This document shows, piece after piece, positions 4,205 to 58,830 of a DNA stretch of 64,000 nucleotides. Origin of the DNA: Elephas maximus indicus (Eukaryota > Chordata > Mammalia > Proboscidea > Elephantidae); the NCBI RefSeq assembly GCF_024166365.1, contig NC_064822.1, forward strand, positions 142,110,823 through 142,174,822. The letters run 5' to 3'. The translations under genes and the position numbers were made by a program. Below the pieces are notes generated by a model. That model worked only from the letters and a program-made list of their open reading frames with translations. It did not search any database and had not been told where the DNA came from. Each line of letters starts with the position of its first letter. Position 1 is the stretch's first letter.

Positions 4205-5145
4205 AGGTTTTAAAGACTAATAAATTCACTTAATAAATATTTATTTATTGAGTACTTACTAATTACACTTACAGTTCCAGGTATAGTGAATAAAATAAAG
4301 TCCTCTTTGAATTTTACATTTGCGGGGGGAGGGGGCAATTAAATATAGTATTTTTTAGGTACTTTTTTTTTTTTTTTTTAGTAAGTAGAATTAAGAAATA
4401 TAAAAAAGGGTAAGGAGACAGATAATGGCAGTGTGGGACATTGGACGTTTCTAGTTAGGCATTGAGGCAAAGTCTCAGTGGGCCAGAGACATTTGACTGA
4501 GACCTGATTGAAGGGAGGGAACCATGAGAAGATTTGGAGGAAGGACAATCCAGACAAAGGGAACAGCAAGTACACAGGCACTGAGGTGGGACAAAACTGG
4601 TGATGCTGGAAGGTTCCGCTAAAAGGTATTTTTTGCACAGAGATGAATAGGTAGAAAGAGAAGTAAAACATCAGGTCAGTTAGTAAGCAACCCTCATCAT
4701 ATAGACCATAAGGCTAAGGTAATTTTGGATTTTATTTAAAGGGATATGGGAAATACAGGAGGAGTTTTGTTTGCTTGGTTGGTTGGTTTTTCACTGTGGT
4801 AAATATATACGTAAGAAAACATTTGCCATCTAACCATTCTTCACATGTACAATTCAGTGGCATTAATTACATTTATTATGTTCACTCATCATCATTATTC
4901 ATTTCCAGGTTTTTCATCACCCTACACCGAAGCTAAGTGTCCCCTAAGCAGTGAGCCTCTTTTTTCCTCTACTTCCTGCCTGTCTATAGTAGGGTTTTGA
5001 GCAGAAAAATGGCATGAAATTTCAGTTTTGAATGACCACTCTGATAGATATGTGGCAAATTAACTACAGAAGGACAAGGATAGAAGTATATTGGTCAGGT
5101 TAGTATTTTGGTCAGTGAGTTATTGCAATAGCCCATATCGAAATC
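4205..5145 (-). mobile_element. L2 LINE 3' region, interrupted
   Basis: Antisense L2: 'tatttattgagtacttact' is the complement of the L2 terminus, followed by 'gggaacagcaagtacacagg' and, after the interruption, 'ccactctgatagatatgtgg' and 'gagttattgcaatagccc'. It is split at about 4,765-4,992 by an unrelated L1-like segment containing 'ggtaaatatatacgtaagaa' and 'tacaattcagtggcattaa'. Non-coding and ancient. Confidence 0.6.
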
Positions 5146-5830: not shown

Positions 5831-6130
5831 CCCAATCAAAACCTCAGAGATTATCAGTAGCTCTCTGAACTCCTACATCTTATTGATAACCAGCCCTTGG
5901 AGTTTCTATTTCCCAAATCTTGTAAATTCCTCTTCTATCTCCCATTTGTAAAAACTCTTACCTGTTCTAGCCTGGATAACTTCATTAACCTCTAAGTCAT
6001 TCTCCACATTAAAACCAGAATGATTTTCCAAAATGTAAATCTGATGATTACACAATTGTATTAAAATCATTCATTTTTCTCTAGTTTGCCTCACCATAAT
6101 GTAAACATACATTGTAATCTTGTCTCTGCC
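5831..6130 (+). mobile_element. L2 fragment, left of the L1#1 insertion
   Basis: Blocks such as 'ccagaatgattttccaaaat' and 'gtaaatctgatgattacaca' match the plus-strand L2 3' domain. The L2 resumes at about 12,655 after L1#1, so L1#1 landed inside it. Confidence 0.5.
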
Positions 6131-7132
6131 TTTTTTTTTTTATTAACTTTTATTAAGCTTCAAGTGAACGTTTACAAATCCAATCAGTCTGTCACATACA
6201 AGTTTACATACATCTTACTCCGTACTCCCACCTGCTCTTCCCCTACTGAGTCAGCCCTTTCAGTCTCTCCTTTCGTGACAATTTTGCCAGCTTCCCTCTC
6301 TCTCTATCCTCCCATCCCCCCACCAGACAAGAGCTGCCAACACACTCTCAAGTGTCCACCTGATATAATTAGCTCACTCTTCATCAGTATCTCTCTCCCA
6401 CCCGCTGACCAGTCCCTTTCATGTCTGATGAGTTGTCTTCGGGGATGGTTCCTGTCCTGTGCCGACAGAAGGTCTCGGGAGCATGGCCGCCGGGATTCCT
6501 CTAGTCTCAGTCAGACCATTAAGTATGGTCTTTTTATGAGAATTTGGGGTCTGCATCCCACTGATCTCCTGTTCCCTCAGGAGTTGTCTGTTGTGCTCCC
6601 TGTCAGGGCAGTCATCGATTGTGGCCGGGCACCAACTAGTTCTTCTGGTCTCAGGGTGATGTAGGTCTCTGGTTCATGTGGCCCTTTCTGTCTCTTGGGC
6701 TCCTAGTTGTCGTGTGACCTTGGTGTTCTTCATTTTCCTTTGCTCCAGGTGGGTTGAGACTAATTGATGCATCTTAGATGGCCGCTTGTTAGCATTTAAG
6801 ACCCCAGATGCCACATTTCAAAGTGGGATGCAGAATGTTTTCATAATAGAATTATTTTGCCAATTGACATAGAAGTCCCCTCAAACCATTTTCCCCAGAC
6901 CCCCGCCCCTGCTCCGCTGACCTTTGAAGCATTCATTTTATCCCGGAAACTTCTTTGCTTTTGGTCCAGTCCAATTGAGCTCACCTTCCATGAATTGAGT
7001 GTTGTCTTTCCCTTCACCCAAAGCAGTTCTTATCTACTGATTAATCAATAAAAAACCCTCTCCCTCCCTCCCTCCCCCCTTCGTAACCACCAAAGTATGT
7101 GTTCTTCTCAGTTTTTACTATTTCTCAAGATC

Positions 7133-10100
7133 TTATAATAGTGGTCTTATACAATATTTGTCCTTTTGCCTCTGACTCATTTCGCTCAGCATAATGCCTT
7201 CCAGGTTCCTCCATGTTATGAAATGTTTCACAGATTCGTCACTGTTCTTTATCGATGCGTAGTATTCCATTGTGTGAATATACCACAATTTATTTACCCA
7301 TTCATCCGTTGATGGACACCTTGGTTGCTTCCAGCTTTTTGCTATTGTAAACAGAGCTGCAATAAACATGGGTGTGCATATATCTGTTTGTGTGAAGGCT
7401 CTTGTATCTCTAGGGTATATTCCGAGGAGTGGGATTTCTGGGTTGTATGGTAGTTCTATTTCTAACTGTTTAAGATAACGCCAGATAGATTTCCAAAGTG
7501 GTTGTACCATTTTACATTCCCACCAGCAGTGTATGAGTTCCAATCTCTCCACAGCCTCTCCAACATTTATTATTTTGTGTTTTTTGGATTAATGCCAGCC
7601 TTGTTGGTGTGAGATGGAATCTCATCGTAGTTTTAATTTGCATTTCTCTAATGGCTAATGATCGAGAGCATTTTCTCATGTATCTGTTGGCTGCCTGAAT
7701 ATCTTCTTTAGTGAAATGTGTGTTCATATCCTTTGCCCACTTCTTGATTGGGTTGTTTGTCTTTTTGTGGTTGAGTTTTGACAGAATCATGTAGATTTTA
7801 GAGATCAGGCGCTGGTCTGAGATGTCATAGCTGAAAATTCTTTCCCAGTCTGTAGGTGGTCTTTTTACTCTTCTGGTGAAGTCTTTAGATGAGCATAGAT
7901 GTTTGATTTTTAGGAGCTCCCAGTTATCGGGTTTCTCTTCATCATTTTTGGTAATGTTTTGTATTCTGTTTATGCCTTGAATTAGGGCTCCTAGGGTTGT
8001 CTCTATTTTTTCTTCCATGATCTTTATCGTTTTAGTCTTTATGTTTAGGTCTTTGATCCACTTGGAGTTAGTTTTTGTGCATGGTGTGAGGTATGGGTCC
8101 TGTTTCATTCTTTTGCAAATGGATATCCAGTTATGCCAGCACCATTTGTTAAAAAGACTATCTTTTCCCCAATTTACTGACACTGGTCCTTTGTCAAATA
8201 TCAGCTGCTCATACGTGGATGGATTTATATCTGGGTTCTCAATTCTGTTCCATTGGTCTATGTGCCTGTTGTTGTACCAGTACCAGGCTGTTTTGACTAC
8301 TGTGGCTGTATAATAGGTTCTGAAATCAGGTAGAGTGAGGCCTTTCACTTTCTTCTTCTTTTTCAGTAATGCTTTTCTTATCCGGGGCTTCTTTCCCTTC
8401 CATATGAAATTGGTGATTTGTTTCTCTATCCCCTTAAAATATGACATTGGAATTTGGATCAGAAGTGCGTTAAATGTATAAATGGCTTTTGGTAGAATAG
8501 ACATTTTTACTATGTTAAGTCTTCCTATCCATGAGCAAGGTATGTTTTTCCACTTAAGTATGTCCTTTTGAATTTCTTGTAGTAGAGCTTTGTAGTTTTC
8601 TTTGTATAGGTCTTTTACATCCTTGGTAAGATTTATTCCTAAGTATTTTATCTTCTTGGGGGCTACTGTGAATGGTATTGATTTGGTTATTTCCTCTTCG
8701 GTGTTCTTTTTGTTGATGTAGAGGAATCCAAGTGATTTTTGTATGTTTATTTTATAACCTGAGACTCTACCAAACTCTTCTATTAGTTTCAGTAGGTTTC
8801 TGGAGGATTCCTTAGGGTTTTCTGTGTATAAGATCATGTCATCTGCAAAGAGTGATAACTTTACTTCCTCCTTGCCAATGCGGATACCCTTTATTTCTTT
8901 GTCTAGCCTAATTGCCCTGGCTAAGACTTCAAGTACGATGTTGAATAAGAGTGGTGATAAAGGGCATCCTTGTCTGGTTCCCGTTCTCAAGGGAAATGCT
9001 TTCAGGTTCTCTCCATTTAGAGTGATATTGGCTGTTGGCTTTGCATAGATGCCCTTTATTATGTTGAGGAATTTTCCTTCAATTCCTATTTTGGTAAGAG
9101 TTTTTATCATAAATGGGTGTTGGACTTTGTCAAATGCCTTTTCTGCATCAATTGATAAGATCATGTGGTTTTTATCTTTTGTTTTATTTATGTGATGGAT
9201 TACATTAATGGTTTTTCTGATATTAAACCAGCTTTGCATACCTGGTATAAATCCCACTTGATCATGGTGAATTATTTTTTTGATGTGTTGTTGGATTCTA
9301 TTGGCTAGAATTTTGTTGAGGATTTTTGCATCTACGTTCATGAGAGATATAGGTCTGTAATTTTGTTTTTATGTAATGTCTTTACCTGGTTTTGGTATCA
9401 GGGAGATGGTGGCTTCATAGAATGAGTTGGGTAGTATTCCGTCCTTTTCTATGCTTTGAAATACCTTCAGTAGTAGTGGTGTTAACTCTTCTCTGAAAGT
9501 TTGGTAGAACTCTGCAGTGAAGCCATCCGGGCCAGGGCTTTTTTTTGTTGGGAGTTTTTTTATTACCGTTTCAATGTCTTTTTTTGTTATGGGTCTATTT
9601 AGTTGTTCTACTTCTGAATGTGTTAGTTTAGGTAGGTAGTGTTTTTCCAAGAATTCATCCATTTCTTCTAGGTCTTCAAATTTGCTGGAGTACAATTTTT
9701 CGTAGTAATCTGATATGATTCTTTTAATTTCATTTGGTTCTGTTGTGATGTGGTCCTTCTCGTTTCTTATTCGGGTTATTTGTTTCCTTTCCTGTATTTC
9801 TTTAGTCAGTCTAGCCAATGGTTTATCAATTCTGTTAATTTTTTCGAAGAACCAGCTTTTGGCTTTCTTAATTCTTTCAATTGTTTTTCTGTTCTCTAAT
9901 TCATTTAGTTCAGCTCTAATTTTTATTATTTGTTTTCTTCTGGTGCCTGATGGGTTCTTTTGTTGCTCACTTTCTATTTGTTCAAGTTGTAGGGACAGTT
10001 CTCTGCTTTTGGCTCTTTCTTCTTTTTGTATGTGTGCATTTATCGATATAAATTGGCCTCTGAGCACTGCTTTTGCTGTGTCCCAGAGGTTTTGATAGGA

Positions 10101-10942
10101 AGTATTTTCATTCTCGTTGCATTCTATGAATTTCCTTATTCCCTCCTTGATGTCTTCTATAACCCAGTCTTTTTTCAGGAGAGTATTGTTCATTTTCCAA
10201 GTATTTGATTTCTTTTCCCTAGTTTTTCTGTTATTGATTTCTAGTTTTATTGCCTTGTGGTCTGAGAAGATGCTTTGTAATATTTCGATGTTTTGGACTC
10301 TGAAAAGGTTTGTTTTATGACCTAATATGTGGTCTATTCTAGAGAATGTTCCATGTGTCCTAGAAAAAAAAGTGTACTTTGCAGCAGTTGGGTGGAGAGT
10401 TCTGTATAAGTCAATGAGGTCAAGTTGGTTGATTGTTGTAATTAGATCTTCCGTGTCTCTATTGAGCTTCTTACTGGATGTCCTGTCCTCCGAAAGTGGT
10501 GTGTTGAAGTCTCCTACTATAATTGTGGAGGTGTCTATCTCACTTTTCAATTCTGTTAAAATTTGATTTATGTATCTTGCAGCCCTGTCATTGGGTGCAT
10601 AAATATTTAATATGGTTATGTCTTCCTGATCAATTGTCCCTTTTATCATTATATAGTGTCCTTCTTTATCCTTTGTGGTGGATTTAAGTCTAACGTCTAT
10701 CTTGTCAGAAATTAATATTGCTACTTCTCTTCTTTTTTGCTTATTGTTTGCTTGATATATTTTTTTCATCCTTTGAGTTTTAGTTTGTTTGTGTCTCTAA
10801 GTCTAAGGCGTGTCTCTTGTAGGCAGCATATAGATGGATCGTGTTTCTTTATCCAGTCCGTGACTCTCTGTCTCTTTATTGGTGCATTTAGTCCATTTAC
10901 ATTCAGCGTAATTATAGATAAATAAGTTTTTAGTGTTGTCAT
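7133..10942 (-). pseudogene. L1#1 ORF2 (endonuclease/reverse transcriptase), disabled
   Basis: ORF2 would make the L1 endonuclease/reverse transcriptase that nicks target DNA and primes cDNA synthesis. Starting from the ATG at 10,942 the order is N-terminal AP-endonuclease (DFNTPLS and SDHKAI blocks), reverse transcriptase with FADD ([15 protein letters not shown]) and a C-terminal cysteine motif ([10 protein letters not shown]). Three lesions are visible against L1#2: a one-base loss near 10,767 at the A7 tract about 60 codons in, a nonsense codon at 9,369-9,371 at the start of the reverse transcriptase, and a two-base deletion near 7,534-7,536 inside the cysteine motif. One codon is also missing near 10,490 (LSEDR versus LSEKDR). 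The copy cannot make a full ORF2 protein. Confidence 0.92.
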
Positions 10943-11193
10943 TTTGATGCCTTTTCATGTGTGTTGTTGGCAATTTCATTTTTCCACATACTTTTTTGTG
11001 CTGAGACGTTTTTCTTAGTAAATTGTGAGATCCTCATTTTCATAGTGTTTGACTTTATGTTAGTTGAGTCGTTACGTTTTTCTTGAGTTATGGAGTTGTT
11101 ATACCTTTTTGTGGTTACCTTATTATTTACCCCTATTTTTCTAAGTAAAAACCTAACTTGTATCGTTCTATATCGCCTTGTATCACTCTCCAT
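10939..11193 (-). other. Inter-ORF small open frame overlapping the ORF2 start
   Basis: An 84-residue open frame starting at the ATG at 11,193 (MESDTRRYRTIQVRF...) and ending ...NNTHEKASK. Its TGA overlaps the ORF2 ATG as ATGA. The same frame is open in L1#2 (88 residues), where a 12-base length difference preserves the frame. It is basic and rich in Lys, Asn, Thr and Ser, with no recognised domain. The amino-acid differences between the copies are mostly nonsynonymous, which argues against strong constraint. Function unknown, possibly none. Confidence 0.35.
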
Positions 11194-11395
11194 CTGGCAG
11201 TTCAATGCCTCCTGTATTTAGTCCCTCTTTTTGATTATTGTGATCTTTTACCTATTGACTTCCATGATTCCCTGTTATGTGTATTATTATTATTATTTTT
11301 AATTAATCTTAATTTGTTTGTTTTTGTGATTTCCCTATTTGAGTTGATATCAGGACATTCTGTTTTGTGACCTTGTATTGTGCTGGTATCTGATA

Positions 11396-12406
11396 TTATT
11401 GGTTTTCTGACCAAAAAATATCCTTTAGTATTTCTTGTAGCTTTGGTTTGGTTTTTGCTAATTCTCTAAACTTGTGTTTATCTGTAAATATCTTAATTTC
11501 GCCTTCATATTTCAGAGAGAGTTTTGCTGGATATGCGATCCTTGGCTGGCAGTTTTTCTCCTTCAGTGCTCTGTATATGTCATCCCATTCCCTTCTTGCC
11601 TGCATGGTTTCTGCTGAGTAGTCTGAACTTATTCTTATTGATTCTCCCTTGAAGGAAACCTTTCTTTTCTCCCTGGCTGCTTTTAAAATTTTCTGTTTAT
11701 CTTTGGTTTTGGCGAGTTTGATGATAATATGTCTTGGTGTTTTTCTTTTTGGGTCAATCTTAAATGGGGTTCGATGAGCATCTTGGATAGATATCCTTTC
11801 GTCTTTCATGATGTCAGGGAAGTTTTGTGTCAGGAGTTCTTCAACTATTTTCTCTGTGTTTTCTGTCCCCCCTCCCTGTTCTGGGACTCCAATCACACGC
11901 AAGTTATCCTTCTTGATAGAGTCCCACATGATTCTTAGGGTTTCTTCATTTTTTAAAATTCTTTGTTTTTTTTCAGCTATGTTGGTGTTGATTCCCTGGT
12001 CCTCCAGATGTCCCAGTCTGCATTCTAATTGCTCGAGTCTGCTCCTCTGACTTCCTATTGCATTGTCTAATTCTGTAATTTTATTGTTAATCTTTTGGAT
12101 TTCTACATGCTGTCTCTCTATGGATTCTTGCAACTTATTAATTTTTCCAGTATGTTCTTGAATAATCTTTTCGAGTTCTTCAACAGTTTTATCAGTGTGT
12201 TCCTTGGCTTTTTGTGCAGTTTGCCTTATTTCGTTTGTGATGTCTTGAAGCATTCTGTAAATTAGTTTTTTATATTCTGTATCTGATAATTCCAGGATTG
12301 TATCTTCATTTGGGAAAGATTTTGATTCTTTTGTTTGGGGGGTTGGAGAAGCTGTCATGGTCTGCTTCTTTATGTGGTTTGATATGGACTGCTGTCTCCG
12401 AGCCAT
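11396..12406 (-). CDS. L1#1 ORF1 protein (ORF1p), intact frame
   Basis: 336 residues with ATG at 12,406 (MARRQQSISNHIKK). ORF1p is the trimeric RNA-binding chaperone that packages L1 RNA into ribonucleoprotein particles. Visible are a polar N-terminus (TASPTPQTKESKSFPN), a long heptad-rich coiled coil (about residues 50-150: KTVEELEKIIQEHTGKINKL), then the RRM and C-terminal domain with 'RVIGVPEQGG', 'IQDAHRT', 'PRHIIIKLAKTKDKQKIL', 'FKGESIRISSDYSAETMQAR' and 'FREFAKTKPKLQEILKD'-like ends. The usual family length is about 335-370. The frame remains open upstream of the ATG across the 5'-UTR junction but has no further ATG there. Open does not mean expressed. Confidence 0.88.
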   Translation of the reverse strand: MARRQQSISNHIKKQTMTASPTPQTKESKSFPNEDTILELSDTEYKKLIYRMLQDITNEIRQTAQKAKEHTDKTVEELEKIIQEHTGKINKLQESIERQHVEIQKINNKITELDNAIGSQRSRLEQLECRLGHLEDQGINTNIAEKKQRILKNEETLRIMWDSIKKDNLRVIGVPEQGGGTENTEKIVEELLTQNFPDIMKDERISIQDAHRTPFKIDPKRKTPRHIIIKLAKTKDKQKILKAAREKRKVSFKGESIRISSDYSAETMQARREWDDIYRALKEKNCQPRIAYPAKLSLKYEGEIKIFTDKHKFRELAKTKPKLQEILKDIFWSENQ

Positions 12407-12641
12407 CACTGGGAAACTTGTTTTTCCAGAAAATCCGCTGACTGGTACGCTGGCTCCAGGCTCTGAAAACAATCGCTGCCTCTCCGTATTTGTTTGTTTT
12501 CCGTCTCTAAATCTGTGTTTGTTGTTCAGGGTTCGTAGATTGTTATGTACGTGATCGATTCACTTGTTTTTCCGAGTCTTTGTTGCAAGAGGGATCCGCG
12601 GTAGCGTCCACCTAGTCTGCCATCTTGGCCCCGCCCCCCCG
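12407..12641 (-). promoter_or_regulatory. L1#1 short 5' UTR with splice-like junction
   Basis: Only about 235 bp separate the L1 5' end from ORF1. The 31 bp next to ORF1 (12,407-12,437) match L1#2 up to 57,801. The remaining 204 bp (12,438-12,641) match L1#2 from 58,630 to 58,830. The intervening 828 bp of L1#2 are absent. In sense orientation the junction reads ACCAGTCAG|CGGATTTT. The YY1-type motif is kept but the GC-rich monomers are lost. Confidence 0.88.
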
Positions 12642-50814: not shown

Positions 50815-51456
50815 GGGAGTTCTGTTGTTGTTAGTTGCTGTTGAGTCAGTTCTGACTCATAGTAATCCTCTGTACAAGAGAATGAAACAGTGCCTGGTCC
50901 TGCCCCATCCTCCCAATCATTGCTATGTTTGGGCCCACTGTTGTAGCCACTATGTCAACCGTCTCATTGGGGGTCTTCCTCTTTTTCGCTGACTCTCTAC
51001 TTCAGCAAGCATGATGTCCTTCTACTGATAACACATCCAAAGTACATAAGAAATCTCGCCACCCTCGCTTCCAAGGAGCACTCTAGCTATACTTCTTCCA
51101 AGAAAAACTTGTTCATTGTCCTGACAGTCCATGGTATATTCAATACTCTTTGCCAACACCATAATTCAAACGCACCTTCTTTGGTCTTCCTTATTCACTG
51201 TCCAGCTTTCCCATGGATATGAGATGACTGAAAATATCATGGCTTGGGTCAGGCACACCTTACTCCTCAAAGTGACATTTTCGTTTCCAACACTTTAAAG
51301 AGGACTTTTGCAACAGATCTGCCCAATAAAATGCATCTTTTGATTTCTTGACTGCTGCTTCCATGGGCGTTGATTGTGGATCCAAGTAAAATGAAATCCT
51401 TGACAACTTCAACCTTTTCTCCATTTATTGTGATGTTGCTTACTGGTCCAGTTGTG

Positions 51457-51465
51457 AGGAATTTT
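51457..51465 (+). repeat. Target-site duplication of L1#2, left copy
   Basis: AGGAATTTT, repeated exactly at 58,831-58,839. The RTE at 22.7 kb shows the uninterrupted site, confirming that L1#2 was inserted here. Confidence 0.93.
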
Positions 51466-52477
51466 TTTTTTTTTTTTTTTTATAATAACTTTTATTAAGC
51501 TTCAAGTGAACGTTTACAAATCCAATCAGTCTGTCACATATAAGTTTACATACATCTCACTCCCTACTCCCACTTACTCTCCCCGTCTTGAGTCAGCCCT
51601 TTCAGGCTCTCCTTTCTTGACAATTTTGCCGGCTTCCCTCTCTCTCTATCCTCCCATCCCCCCTCCAGGCAAGAGTTGCCAACACAATCTCAAGTGTCCA
51701 CCTGATATAATTAGCTCACTCTTCATCAGCATCTCTCTCCCACCCGCTGACCAGTCCCTTTCATTTCTGAAGAGTTGTCTTCGGGGATGGTTCCTGTCCT
51801 GTGTCAGCTGAAGGTCTGGGGAGCATGGCCGCCGGGATTCCTCCAGTCTCAGTCAGACCATTAAGTTTGGTCTTGTTATGAGAATTTGGGGTCTGCATCC
51901 CACTGATCTCCTGCTCCCTCAGGGGTCCTCTGCTGAGCTCCCTGTCAGGGCAGTCATCGATTGTGGCCGGGCACCAACTAGTTCTTCTGGTCTCAGGATG
52001 ATGTAGGTCTCTGGTTCATGTGGCCCTTTCTGTCTCTTGGGCTCTTAGTTGTCATGTGGGCTTGGTGTTCTTCATTTTCCTTTGCTCCAGGTGGGTTGAG
52101 ACCAATTGCTGCATCTTAGATGGCTGCTTGTTAGCATTTAAGACCCCAGACGCCACATTTCGAAGTGGGATGCAGAATGATTTCATAATAGAATTATTTT
52201 GCCAATTGACTTAGAAGTCCCCGCAAACCATGTTCCCCAGACCCCCGCGCTTGCTCCGCTGACCTTTGAAGCATTCATTTTATCCCGGAAACTTCTTTGC
52301 TTTTGGTCCAGTCCAATTGAGCTGACCTTCCATGTATTGAGTGTTGTCTTTCCCTTCACCTAAAGCAGTTCTTATCTACTGATTAATCAATAAAAAACCC
52401 TCTCCCACCCTCCCTCCCTCCCCCCCTCGTAACCACAAAAGTATGTGTTCTTCTCAGGTTTACTATTTCTCAAGATC

Positions 52478-55400
52478 TTATAATAGTGGTCTTATACAAT
52501 ATTTGTCCTTTTGCCTCTGACTAATTTCGCTCAGCATAATGCCTTCCAGGTTCCTCCATGTTATGAAATGTTTCAGAGATTCGTCACTGTTCTTTATCGA
52601 TGCGTAGTATTCCATTGTGTGAATATACCACAATTTATTTACCCATTCATCCGTTGATGGACACCTTGGTTGCTTCCAACTTTTTGCTATTGTAAACAGA
52701 GCTGCAATAAACATGGGTGTGCATATATCTGTTTGTATGAAGGCTCTTGTATCTCTAGGGTATATTCCTAGGAGTGGGATTTCTGGGTTGTATGGTAGTT
52801 CTATTTCTAACTGTTTAAGATAACGCCAGATAGATTTCCAAAGTGGTTGTACCATTTTACATTCCCACCAGCAGTGTATGAGAGTTCCAATCTCTCCGCA
52901 GCCTCTCCAACATTTATTATTTTGTGTTTTTTGGATTAATGCCAGCCTTGCTGGTGTGAGATGGAATCTCATCGTAGTTTTAATTTGCATTTCTCTAATG
53001 GCTAATGATCGAGAGCATTTTCTCATGTATCTGTTGGCTGCCTGAATATCTTCTTTAGTGAAATGTGTGTTCATATCCTTTGCCCACTTCTTGATTGGGT
53101 TGTTTGTCTTTTTGTGGTTGAGTTTTGACAGAATCATGTAGATTTTAGAGATCAGGCGCTGGTCGGAGATGTCATAGCTGAAAATTCTTTCCCAATCTGT
53201 AGGTGGTCTTTTTACTCTTTTGGTGAAGTCTTTAGATGAGCATAGGTGTTTGATTTTTAGGAGCTCCCAGTTATCGGGTTTCTCTTCATCATTTTTGGTA
53301 ATGTTTTGTATTCTGTTTATACCTTGTATTAGGGCTCCTAGGGTTGTCCCAATTTTTTCTTCCATGATCTTTATCGTTTTAGTCTTTATGTTTAGGTCTT
53401 TGATCCACTTGGAGTTAGTTTTTGTGCATGGTGTGAGGTATGGGTCCTGTTTCATTTTTTTGCAAATGGATATCCAGTTATGCCAGCACCATTTGTTAAA
53501 AAGGCTATCTTTTCCCCAGTTAATTGACACTGGTCCTTTGTCAAATATCAGCTGCTCATACGTGGATGGATCTATGTCTGGGTTCTCAATTCTGTTCCAT
53601 TGGTCTATGTGTCTGTTGTTGTACCAATACCAGGCTGTTTTGACTACTGTGGCTGTATAATAGTTTCTGAAGTCAGGTAAGGTGAGGCCTCCCACTTTCT
53701 TCTTCTTTTTCAGTAGTGCTTTGCTTATCCGGGGCTTCTTTCCGTTCCATATGAAATTGGTGATTTGTTTCTCTATCCCCTTAAAATATGACATTGGAAT
53801 TTGGATCGGAAGTGCGTTAAATGTATAGATGGCTTTTGGTAGAATAGACATTTTTACTATGTTAAGTCTTCCTATCCATGAGCAAGGTATGTTTTTCCAC
53901 TTAAGTATGTCCTTTTGAATTTCTTGTAGTAGAGCTTTGTAGTTTTCTTTGTATAGGTCTTTTACATCCTTGGTAAGATTTATTCCTAAGTATCTTATCT
54001 TCTTGGGGGCTATTGTGAATGGTATTGATTTGGTTATTTCCTCTTCGGTGTTCTTTTTGTTGATGTAGAGGAATCCAAGTGATTTTTGTATGTTTATTTT
54101 ATAACCTGAGACTCTGCCAAACTCTTCTATTAGTTTCAGTAGTTTTCTGGAGGATTCCTTAGGGTTTTCTGTGTATATAATCATGTCATCTGCAAATAGT
54201 GATAACTTTACTTCTTCCTTGCCAATCCGGATACCTTTTATTTCTTTGTCTAGCCTGATTGCCCTGGCTAAGACTTCCAACACGATGTTGAATAAGAGCG
54301 GTGATAAAGGGCATCCTTGTCTGGTTCCCGTTCTCAAGGGAAATGCTTTCAGGTTCTCTCCATTTAGAGTGACATTGGCTGTTGGCTTTGCATAGATGCC
54401 CTTTATTATGTTGAGGAATTTTCCTTCAATTCCTATTTTGGTAAGAGTTTTTATCATGAATGGGTGTTGGACTTTGTCAAATGCCTTTTCTGCATCAATT
54501 GATAAGATCATGTGGTTTTTGTCTTTTGTTTTATTTATGTGATGGATTACATTAATGGTTTTTCTGATATTAAACCAGCCTTGCATACCTGGTATAAATC
54601 CCACTTGATCAGGGTGAATTATTTTTTTGATGTGTTGTTGGATTCTATTGGCTAGAATTTTGTTGAGGATTTTTGCATCAATGTTCATGAGGGATATAGG
54701 TCTATAATTTTCTTTTTTTGTAATGTCTTTACCTGGTTTTGGTATCAGGGAGATGGTGGCTTCATAGAATGAGTTGGGTAGTATTCCGTCATTTTCTATG
54801 CTTTGGAATACCTTTAGTAGTAGTGGTGTTAACTCTTCTCTGAAAATTTGGTAGAACTCTGCAGTGAAGCCGTCCGGGCCGGGACTTTTTTTTGTTGGGA
54901 GTTTTTTGATTACCGTTTCAATCTCTTTTTTTGTTATGGGTCTATTTAGTTGTTCTACTTCTGAATGTGTTAGTTTAGGTAGGTAGTGTTTTTCCAGGAA
55001 TTCATCCATTTCTTCTAGGTTTTCAAATTTGTTAGAGTACAATTTTTCATAATAATCTGAAATGATTCTTTTAATTTCATTTGGTTCTGTTGTGATGTGG
55101 TCCTTCTCATTTCTTATTCGGGTTATTTGTTTCCTTTCCTGTATTTCTTTAGTCAGTCTAGCCAATGGTTTATCAATTTTGTTAATTTTTTCAAAGAACC
55201 AGCTTTTGGCTTTGTTAATTCTTTCAATTGTTTTTCTGTTCTCTAATTCATTTAGTTCAGCTCTAATTTTTATTATTTGTTTTCTTCTGGTGCCTGATGG
55301 ATTCTTTTGTTGCTCACTTTCTATTTGTTCAAGTTGTAGGGACAGTTCTCTGATTTTGGCTCTTTCTTCTTTTTGTATGTGTGCATTTATTGATATAAAT

Positions 55401-56294
55401 TGGCCTCTGAGCACTGCTTTTGCTGTGTCCCAGAGGTTTTGATAGGAAGTATTTTCATTCTCGTTGCTTTCTATGAATTTCCTTATTCCCTCCTTGATGT
55501 CTTCTATAACCCAGTCTTTTTTCAGGAGGGTATTGTTCATTTTCCAAGTATTTGATTTCTTTTCCCTCGTTTTTCTGTTATTGATCTCTAGTTTTATTGC
55601 CTTGTGATCTGAGAAGATGCTTTGTAATATTTCGATGTTTTGGACTCTGCAAAGGTTTGTTTTATGTCCTAATATGTGGTCTATTCTAGAGAATGTTCCA
55701 TGTGCGCTGGAAAAAAAAGTATATTTTGCAGCAGTTGGGTGGAGAGTTCTGTATAAGTCAATGAGGTCAAGTTGGTTGATTGTTGTAATTAGATCTTCCG
55801 TGTCTCTATTGAGCTTCTTGCTGGATGTCCTGTCCTTCTCCGAAAGTGGTGTGTTGAAGTCTCCTACTATAATTGTGGAGGTATCTATCTCGCTTTTCAG
55901 TTCTGTTAAAATTTGATTTATGTATCTTGCAGCCCTGTCATTGGGTGCGTAAATATTTAATATGGTTATGTCTTCCTGATCAATTGTCCCTTTTATCATT
56001 ATATAGTGTCCTTCTTTATCCTTTGTGGTGGATTTAAGTCTAAAGTCTATTTTGTCAGAAATTAATATTGCTACTCCTCTTCTTTTTTGCTTATTGTTTG
56101 CTTGATATACTTTTTTTCCATCCTTTGAGTTTTAGTTTATTTGAGTCTCTAAGTCTAAGGTGTGTCTCTTGTAGGCAGCATATAGATGGATCGTGTTTCT
56201 TTATCCAGTCTGTGACTCTCTGTCTCTTTATTGGTGCATTTAGTCCATTTACATTCAGGGTAATTATAGATAAGTAAGTTTTTAGTGCTGTCAT
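52478..56294 (-). pseudogene. L1#2 ORF2 (endonuclease/reverse transcriptase), one frameshift
   Basis: The ATG at 56,294 starts the endonuclease (TYLSIITLNVNGLNAPI, CCLQETHL). After about 66 codons the frame is lost at an A7 tract (56,110-56,117) carrying one extra base. The remaining about 1,200 codons are open: endonuclease DFNTPLS and SDHKAI, reverse transcriptase with [28 protein letters not shown] and catalytic FADD (54,185-54,196), then the cysteine motif [19 protein letters not shown] and the C-terminal end at 52,478. Expected total is about 1,271 residues, normal for L1 ORF2. It is disabled as it stands by this single lesion, unless that is an assembly error. Confidence 0.93.
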
Positions 56295-56557
56295 TTTGAT
56301 GCCTTTTTATGTGTGTTGTTGACAATTTCATTTTTCCACATACTTTTTTGTGCTGAGGCGTTTTTCTTAGTAAATTGTGAGATCCTCATTTTCATAGTGT
56401 TTGACTTTATGTTAGTTGAGTCGTTACGTTTTTCTTGGTTTTTGTCTTGAGTTATAGAGTTGTTATACCTTTTTGTGGTTACCTCATTATATACCCCTAT
56501 TTTTCTAAGTAAAAACCTAACTTGTATTGTTCTATATCGCCTTGTATCACTCTCCAT
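56291..56557 (-). other. Inter-ORF small open frame overlapping the ORF2 start
   Basis: 88 residues from the ATG at 56,557 (MESDTRRYRTIQVRF) to ...NNTHKKASK, ending in the ATGA overlap with ORF2. Homologous to the 84-residue frame in L1#1; the length difference is four codons (DKNQ region). No domain recognised. It could be a real peptide, a reinitiation device for ORF2, or a chance frame. Confidence 0.35.
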
Positions 56558-56753
56558 ATGGCAGTTCAATGCCTCCTGTATTTAGTCCCTCTTTTTGATT
56601 ATTGTGATCTTTTACCTATTGACTTCCATGATTCCCTGTTATGTGTATTTTTTTTTTTAATTAATCTTAATTTGTTTGTTTTTGTGATTTCCCTATTTGA
56701 GTTGATATCAGGACGTTCTGTTTTGTGACCTTGTGTTGTGCTGATATCTGATA

Positions 56754-57770
56754 TTATTGGTTCTCTGACCAAACAATATCCTTTAGTATTTCTTGTAGCT
56801 TTGGTTTGGTTTTTGCAAATTCTCTAAACTTGTGTTTGTCTGTAAATATCTTAATTTCGCCTTCATATTTCAGAGAGAGTTTTGCTGGATATATGATCCT
56901 TGGCTGGCAGTTTTTCTCCTTCAGTGTTCTGTATATGTCGTCCCATTCCCTTCTTGCCTGCATGGTTTCTGCTGAGTAGTCAGAACATATTCTTATTGAT
57001 TCTCCCTTGAAGGAAACCTTTCTTTTCTCCCTGGCTGCTTTTAAAATTTTCTGTTTATCTTTGGTTTTGGTGAGTTTGATGATAATATGTCTTGGTGTTT
57101 TTCTTTTTGGATCAATCTTAAATGGGGTTCGATGAGCATCTTGGATAGATATCCTTTCGTCTTTCATGATGTCAGGGAAGTTTTCTGTCAGAAGTTCTTC
57201 AACTATTTTCTCTGTGTTTTCTGTCCCTCCTCCCTGTTCTGGGACTCCAATCACCCGCAGGTTATCCTTCTTGATAGAGTCCCACATAATTCTTAGGGTT
57301 TCTTCATTTTTTTTAATTCTTTTATCTGATTTTTTTTCAGCTATGTTGGTGTTAATTCCCTGGTCCTCCAGATGTCCCAGTCTGCATTCTAATTGCTCGA
57401 GTCTGCTCCTCTGACTTCCTATTACGTTGTCTAATTCTGTTATTTTATTGTTAATCTTTTGGATTTCTACATGTTGTCTCTCTATGGATTCTTGCAACTT
57501 ATTAATTTTTCCAGTATGTTCTTGAATAATCTTTTTGAGTTCTTCAACAGTTTTATCAGTGTGTTCCTTGGCTTTTTCTGCAGATATCCTAATTTCATTT
57601 GTGATATCATTAAGCATTCTGTAAATTAGTTTTTTATATTCTGTATCTGATAATTCCAAAATTGTATCTTCATTTGGGAAAGATTTTGATTCTTTTGTTT
57701 GGGGGGTTGGAGAAGCTGTCCCGGTCTGCTTCTTTAAGTGGTTTGATATGGATTGTTGTCTCCGAGCCAT
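56754..57770 (-). CDS. L1#2 ORF1 protein (ORF1p), intact frame
   Basis: 338 residues, ATG at 57,770 (MARRQQSISNHLKKQTGTAS). It has a polar N-terminus, a coiled coil (KTVEELKKIIQEHTGKINKL onward to about residue 150), then RRM and C-terminal domains (RVIGVPEQGGGTENTEKIVE, ISIQDAHRTPFKIDPK, PRHIIIKLTKTKDKQKILK, ESIRICSDYSAETMQARREW). It is slightly longer than the L1#1 protein because of a two-residue difference around EKKSDKRIKKNEE. ORF1p binds L1 RNA as a trimer. The upstream codon (GTG) is not a plausible start. Confidence 0.9.
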   Translation of the reverse strand: MARRQQSISNHLKKQTGTASPTPQTKESKSFPNEDTILELSDTEYKKLIYRMLNDITNEIRISAEKAKEHTDKTVEELKKIIQEHTGKINKLQESIERQHVEIQKINNKITELDNVIGSQRSRLEQLECRLGHLEDQGINTNIAEKKSDKRIKKNEETLRIMWDSIKKDNLRVIGVPEQGGGTENTEKIVEELLTENFPDIMKDERISIQDAHRTPFKIDPKRKTPRHIIIKLTKTKDKQKILKAAREKRKVSFKGESIRICSDYSAETMQARREWDDIYRTLKEKNCQPRIIYPAKLSLKYEGEIKIFTDKHKFREFAKTKPKLQEILKDIVWSENQ

Positions 57771-57801
57771 CACTGGGAAACTAGTTTTTCCAGAAAATCC
57801 G

Positions 57802-58629
57802 CTAAAAAAAAAACTGCAGTCAGATCCCTATCAGAGTTCTCCCTTTGGCTCAGGCTATTCAGATGTTAATGAAGCCGCCTGGGAAGGGTGGGGGAGGGAA
57901 CAGAGAGATAGGAGAGTAGCACCTCAGAATATAGCCAGAGTTGCTTGTCTTGCTTGGAATGACTGTTATATCTGAGATTCTCACGGGCGCGTCGCCTATG
58001 TGTGCTGGCTGTGTGGAGATTGCCCCCGGGGGGTCTGGCCCGCTGGAGTCACGGTCAGATCCTCCGCTTCCAGCCCCACGCCCAGCGTCAAGGCTCCCCT
58101 ACTGGGACGGTGCACTCTCAACTCCAAAATCAGTCGCTGCCTCCCGGGGACTTCTCGTCTCTCCAGCCGCGTGGCGTGAGAACTTCTCGTCTCTCCTGCC
58201 GCCCCCGTGAACTAGGTGGGCCCCCTCCCGGGGTTAGTTCAGATGGGTGGAGTAGCTCCCTGTGCTTGTGCCGCGACCGAGTGTCCTGGCTGGAACGCTG
58301 TTCTCCCCACTCCAATACCAGTCGCTGCCTCCCGGGGACTTCTCCTACCGGCTGCGTCCCACGCCGCCCGCGCGACCCGGCTGGTCCCCTTCCCGGGGTT
58401 AGTTCAGGGGGTGGAGCAACTCTCCGTGTTTATGGCGTACCTGCGTGCAGTCCTAATCCCTGCGGGACGGTTCCCCGGCTCGGATGCTGCTCTTTCTGCT
58501 CCAAGATCAGTCACTGCCTCCCGGGGACTTCTCCTACCGGCTGTGTCCCACGCCGCCCGTGGAACCAGCTGGTCCCCCTCCCGGGGTTAGTTCAGGGGGG
58601 TGGAGCAGGTCTCTGTGCTTGTGCCGTAC
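57802..58629 (-). other. Intron-like GT-AG segment in the L1#2 5' UTR
   Basis: In L1 sense the segment begins GTACGG after CAG (58,630) and ends with ten T then AG (57,802-57,813). A branch-like CTGAC has its A 18 nt before the acceptor AG. L1#1 lacks exactly this segment. Length 828 bp. The junction could be slid by up to two bases because of shared bases; the GT-AG placement is one of three equivalent alignments. Confidence 0.8.
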
Positions 58630-58690
58630 CTGACTGGTACGCTGGCTCCAGGCTCTGGAAACAATCGCTGCTTCCCCGTATTAGTTCGTT
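58115..58690 (-). repeat. GC-rich tandem monomers in the L1#2 5' UTR
   Basis: About three units. The anchor ctcccggggacttctc recurs at 58,141, 58,329 and 58,518 (spacing 188 and 189), with a diverged partial copy near 58,671. The second anchor tcccggggttagttcag recurs at 58,226, 58,391 and 58,579. Analogous in position to the promoter monomers of mouse L1; promoter activity here is inferred, not shown. Confidence 0.85.
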
Positions 58691-58809
58691 CTCCGTCTCT
58701 AAATCTGTGTTTGTTGTTCAGGGTTCGTAGATTGTTATGTATGTGATCGATTCACTTGTTTTTCCGTGTCTTTGTTGTAAGAGGGATCCGAGGTAGCGTC
58801 TGCCTAGTC

Positions 58810-58819
58810 CGCCATCTTG
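58810..58819 (-). promoter_or_regulatory. YY1-type site at the L1#2 5' end
   Basis: Sense CAAGATGGCG within 20 bp of the element start. In human L1 the corresponding AAGATGGC binds YY1 and positions transcription initiation. The same motif is present in L1#1. Confidence 0.65.
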
Positions 58820-58830
58820 GCTCCGCCGCC

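Follow-up and report, generated by a model that had tools for sequence, protein, structure and literature searches.

The closest described counterparts of the elements reported here are the spliced integrated retrotransposed elements (SpIREs) of human LINE-1. In Larson et al. 2018 (PMC5860796), SpIREs make up 131 of 6609, or about 2%, of the annotated full-length L1PA1-L1PA6 copies, with a common donor at 98 joined to acceptors at 620, 788 and 851, as well as to one at 974 in ORF1, and splicing within the human L1 5'UTR is described there as rare and, in general, as a dead end. For mouse L1 Tf (L1spa), PMC9022269 reports, citing other work, that two monomers each have a predicted donor at the cognate position and that predicted acceptors lie in a monomer and in the tether. 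Alternative splicing is proposed there for 22 mouse copies, with the sites called cryptic and predicted, and mouse L1 monomers are stated to carry promoter activity. Additionally, PMC13174262 derives the RAP1GDS1-L1PA2 chimera from a human SpIRE that was mobilised again by way of the promoter of a gene. Among the listed titles and abstract openings of the open-licence literature, none reports spliced copies of L1 for the elephant or Afrotheria lineage.

We examined a window of 64,000 nucleotides from Elephas maximus indicus (NC_064822.1, positions 142,110,823 to 142,174,822), which carries two related elements on its minus strand, both of which we take to be L1 (LINE-1) from the usual layout of such elements, with open ORF1 and ORF2 frames and an A-tail found in the sequence. 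L1#1 spans about 6131-12640, with an A-tail at about 6119-6130, an open ORF1 (11396..12406) and an ORF2 interrupted into three open pieces (7133..10796). L1#2, its unspliced relative, spans about 51471-58830, with an A-tail at about 51451-51470, and both of its frames are open (52478-57770). The two elements are 95.9% identical over 6340 alignment columns and 92.9% identical over the 198-nt 5' leader ("exon 1", 12438..12635 in L1#1, aligned to 58630-58827 in L1#2). They share this leader and the body starting 31 nt before ORF1, and their alignment contains a single large gap, 12437/12438 against 57801...58630, with all other indels being small. The first-pass annotation had claimed that L1#1 lacks positions 57802-58629 of L1#2, including its tandem monomers, and we find that the missing segment is exactly 828 nt and consists of the monomer array and the tether. 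Its composition is about 61% G+C with 51 CpG dinucleotides, and that of the window is 37% G+C. Antisense to the 5'UTR of L1#2, we also observe a 255-aa stop-to-stop open frame (57963-58730, plus strand), which may be only an effect of G+C composition, although primate L1 is known to have open frames antisense to its 5'UTR.

In the sense direction, the 828-nt segment begins CAG|GTACGG and ends ...CTGACTGCAGTTTTTTTTTTAG|CGGATTTT, while L1#1 reads ACCAGTCAG|CGGATTTT across the break, with the letters directly before it being CAGTCAG|CGGATTTT. The leader of L1#1 starts near a CCAAGATGGC-type 5' end and its last letters are ...GTACCAGTCAG, and the part beyond the break ("exon 2", 12407..12437) supplies the 31 nt ahead of the ORF1 ATG, which starts at 12406. 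As 2 nt (AG) are common to both sides, the break in L1#1 has three possible placements, one of which is GT...AG. The borders CAG|GTACGG and T10AG and the exon-exon junction in L1#1, which we locate at CAG|CGG between 12437 and 12438, agree with the first-pass annotation, whose details were right where we checked them.

Next, we ranked the 36 GT and 97 AG sites of the L1#2 5'UTR using a simple matrix of splice-site frequencies. The donor at the end of the leader (D1, CAG|GTACGG, 58629..58630, minus strand) ranks first among the GT sites, followed by D2 (CAG|GTACGC, 58440..58441, minus strand), a second instance of the D1 site in the next monomer, 189 nt further along. Among the AG sites, the first rank belongs to A1 (CCCTTCCCAG|GCGGC, 57878..57879, minus strand) and the second to A2 (T10AG|CGG, 57801..57802, minus strand), the acceptor found in L1#1. 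A1 is 75-77 nt upstream of A2, and neither acceptor falls within a monomer or repeats a donor site. A third acceptor, A3, ranks only 22nd of the 97 AG sites in L1#2. All four joins of D1 and D2 with A1 and A2 are found in the host.

We searched the host genome (3.40 Gb, 64 contigs) with the DNA of the L1#1 junction region, and the best 40 of 3292 candidates are 96-100% identical across nearly the whole query; therefore, L1#1 is no singular event. With at most one mismatch, the junction patterns occur at 544 places for D1A2, 591 for D2A2, 407 for D2A1 and 115 for D1A1, and the reversed-pattern controls occur at none; chance does not explain the L1#1 junction. For the search against the unspliced form, suggested in the first-pass annotation, A2 is retained at 6582 places, a count including A1-joined copies, A1 at 9576 places and D1 at 4490, all at the same threshold. 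Summed over the four spliced classes, 1657 places are obtained, or 21% of about 7717 (6582 with A2 retained plus 1135 joined to A2), a share that is only rough because the patterns differ in length. The share also depends on the denominator, as the A1-retained count exceeds the other retained counts, and with this yardstick it becomes 15% (1657/11233). In the viral contigs, a search with exon 2 returned two 18-mer matches, and BLAST of both loci to the window gave no match; ORF1p has no relative among the viral contigs, and a longer exon-2 pattern is without match in the genome contig collection.

To these counts we add a census on contig C1 of 100 consecutive places that match exon 2 exactly, the first among 5517, which span C1:1-63.5 Mb and comprise only copies with the exact 25-base exon 2. 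Of these, 48 were classified by coordinates, 5 from 1.8-kb stretches and 47 by eye from 137-base stretches. We observe 63 unspliced copies, 31 spliced copies and 6 with another 5'UTR. Among the 63, 31 were assigned by the distance from donor to exon 2, one (L097) by 1.1 kb of upstream sequence and the other 31 only by the 131 nt preceding exon 2, and therefore some of these "unspliced" copies may be 5'-truncated further up. The 31 spliced copies comprise 11 D2A2, 8 D1A2, 7 D2A1, 2 D1A1, one with D2 joined to a third AG and 2 with an early-ending leader. Hence two donors and three AG sites account for the junctions in 29 of the 31 shortened copies (L058 being assigned by length alone), and D1 is the donor in 10 of these 29. 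By the three counts together, 15-31% of the comparable L1 copies in the host are spliced. The third AG (A3), used in L103, precedes A2 by about 11 nt (CTGACTGCAG|T9AG). In the two copies with an early-ending leader (L100 and L142), the leader ends 4 nt earlier, at GTACCAG|CGG, and we infer that they are D1 variants; no unspliced parent with this leader end was seen. At the remaining six sites (L096, L105, L107, L119, L120 and L144) a different 5'UTR, probably that of an older L1 type, is found upstream of the same A2 acceptor, which is retained.

The first-pass annotation had held that its reading would fail if L1#2 were a rare insertion or if other copies were deleted at many unrelated breakpoints, and the census speaks against both, with 63 of the 100 exon-2 sites being unspliced and 29 of the 31 shortened copies using the same sites. 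That the short 5'UTR of the L1#1 type is the original state and the L1#2 segment an insertion is consistent with the longer end branches of L1#1-type than of L1#2-type rows in the tree described below, though these rows were picked by different patterns. However, besides the unspliced majority, two unspliced copies (L061 and L097) are placed outside the young portion of the tree, the segment is bordered by splice sites that have a repeat of only 2 nt, and the A1 and D2 junctions require that the segment was already present. We reject this alternative, from the unspliced majority, the splice-site borders and the A1 and D2 junctions, as extremely improbable. Removal of the segment by DNA deletion, through microhomology or unequal exchange between monomers, would fit the 2-nt AG common to both sides of the L1#1 break, and the monomer repeats could recombine, copies with one monomer fewer (L046 and L061) being in existence. 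Nevertheless, monomer recombination cannot produce these joins because the monomer repeat does not include the acceptors, and the same breaks recur in hundreds of copies at different places and in four combinations of the same sites. From these shared, site-specific breaks, DNA deletion is very unlikely and is likewise rejected.

When reading the loci at D1 (the first 30 exact matches on C1, of the 4490 places at up to one mismatch), we find that 29 of 30 have the CCAAGATGG motif at a distance of 189-192 nt ahead of D1. One locus without exon 2 (L053) was dropped, leaving 29, among which the intron is 785-812 nt in 17, while in 2 it lacks one monomer and measures 609 or 620 nt. In a further 8 the distance from D1 to exon 2 is exactly 189 nt, corresponding to the leader plus one monomer with the end GCAG|CGG, and unspliced copies have at the point where this stretch ends a second CAG|GTA, the D1 site in the next monomer, that is, D2. 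Distances of 264 and 265 nt in the last 2 loci (L052 and L058) fit D2A1, with L052 matching that junction exactly and L058 being assigned from its length alone; a D2A1 join is visible in the letters of L095, and a D1A1 join was found in L093. D1A2 copies are without any monomer, and D2 copies retain one after the leader. Three unspliced copies differ in their array: L046 and L061 are shorter by one monomer and lack D2, and the monomers of L097 are different, with no CAGGTA within the stretch read. Since the donor sits at the start of the repeated monomer, the addition of a 189-bp monomer would have brought the second donor with it.

We then considered how often the junctions arose, using a tree built for 66 rows from 791 columns of leader and ORF1 start (bootstrap convergence 0.988 versus the 0.99 wanted). 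Loci L004-L032, picked for their likeness to L1#1, were left out, and L003 is the L1#1 locus itself. The tree contains 32 D1A2, 8 D2A2, 3 D2A1 and 1 D1A1 rows, and AU tests covering the two largest of these classes reject both a single D2A2 clade (p-value = 0.00093) and a single D1A2 clade (p-value = 0.00013); neither D2A2 nor D1A2 goes back to a single origin. The D2A2 copy L034 is identical to the unspliced L044 and to L1#2 over all 791 columns, and the letters ahead of D2 agree with the nearest unspliced copy in 9 of the 11 D2-spliced copies compared, the exceptions being L045, which is mismatched, and L039, which is off by one letter. The D1A2 rows include two loci about 260 kb apart, L071 and L072, whose 5' flanks are 99% identical and which constitute a segmental duplication; both were kept in the tree.

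The D1A2 class admits another explanation, in which one or a few spliced copies became sources and most D1A2 copies, including L1#1, are their descendants, the size of the class then being due to propagation and not to repeated splicing. Indeed, 29 of the 32 D1A2 rows form one star-like, moderately supported group (82/93), and because most rows group together, some D1A2 copies may descend from spliced parents and not from separate splicing. However, the unspliced L097 and the D1A1 copy L093 nest inside this group, three D1A2 rows (L063, L081 and L094) sit apart from it, in line with the rejected single clade, and D2A2 is clearly recurrent. Furthermore, nearly all unspliced rows come from a pattern favouring young copies, which may exaggerate the isolation of D1A2. 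We thus regard descent of most D1A2 copies from a few spliced sources as unlikely, with recurrent retrotransposition of spliced RNA being the preferred reading.

With respect to timing, the median end branch is 0.018 for D1A2, 0.007 for unspliced and 0.003 for D2A2 rows, a contrast that may partly reflect selection because D2-spliced and nearly all unspliced rows were picked by one exact pattern favouring young copies and D1A2 rows by another. D1-spliced copies, L1#1 included, look older on average and D2-spliced copies younger. The simplest reading is that the older array was spliced from D1, and that D2 arrived with a 189-bp monomer added later, after which much splicing would have proceeded via D2. 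This switch from an old to a young donor draws on the three unspliced copies that have no D2 (L046, L061 and L097), and the time order is not clean, as the D2-spliced L039 and L043 branch before L046.

Spliced copies begin at the same L1 5' end as unspliced copies. The comparison of their target duplications, also proposed in the first-pass annotation, was made on the 3' flanks of 16 spliced copies, 13 of which were testable (L047, L070 and L084 fell outside the test). In 12 of the 13, the copy's own flanks share 11-17 nt, a length reached by none of 210 mispaired controls, the sole exception being L092, without a shared flank of this kind. The 11 nt shared in L068 are A-rich, and in L090 the ends of the element are abutted by a 13-nt match, identified by eye, and not by the longest one. 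For the two elements of the window, the shared flanks are 7 nt in L1#1, a length also reached by 21 of the 210 mispaired controls, and 9 nt in L1#2, reached by 2 of the 210. As the flank match of L1#1 is only 7 nt, its probable retrotransposition is deduced from the class to which it belongs, together with the full-length 5' start and the A-tail. In the 3' flank of L047 (L148), the apparent 5' end of another L1 (CCAAGATGGCTGACTAGG) occurs soon past the A-tail, in a head-to-tail arrangement.

Taken together, L1#1 lacks a 5'UTR segment bounded by GT...AG, carries a recurrent exon-exon junction and starts at the L1 5' end, with the target duplication and A-tail of a SpIRE found at the level of its class. 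We conclude, from sequence, that L1#1 is very probably a spliced integrated retrotransposed element, produced by a recurrent and common retrotransposition of spliced L1 RNA in the host. In the proposed mechanism, transcription would start at the L1 5' end, the spliceosome would cut out the monomer and tether part of the 5'UTR from D1 to A2, and the L1 machinery would insert the spliced RNA at a new place. By analogy with human and mouse work, a copy from which the monomer segment was removed would be expected to have a weaker promoter. It is also conceivable, if rather doubtful, that splicing of the 5'UTR belongs regularly to the life cycle of L1 in the host and is no accident, in which case the donor was duplicated along with the monomers, many insertions derive from spliced RNA and some forms consisting of the leader and one monomer retain enough promoter to mobilise again.

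When comparing L1#1 and its class with the known systems, the likeness to human SpIREs that the first-pass annotation had claimed holds for the account of Larson et al. (PMC5860796): splicing takes place within the 5'UTR, from a donor near the 5' end to several acceptors, and is followed by integration elsewhere with L1 hallmarks and loss of promoter sequence. In contrast to the one common donor and the share of about 2% given there, the donor in the host is repeated with the monomer, and the spliced share of comparable copies is many times larger (PMC5860796). The RAP1GDS1-L1PA2 chimera, as presented in PMC13174262, resembles L1#1 in being a SpIRE with a gap in its 5'UTR. As in the mouse L1spa of PMC9022269, the donor occurs at the cognate place in two monomers, here as D1 and D2, whereas the 22 mouse copies compare with 1657 counted places in the host. 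Because splice products are so common here, the cost of splicing to L1 and the persistence of splice sites beside promoter-like monomers become testable from the genome alone, and L1 copies with a "short 5'UTR" may be splice products and not subfamilies. Overall, SpIRE-type copies are known in human, and the host form, judged from its letters and counts, appears to be new and unusually abundant, with apparent splice products from two donors and two main acceptors accounting for 15-31% of comparable copies, as opposed to the rare human case.
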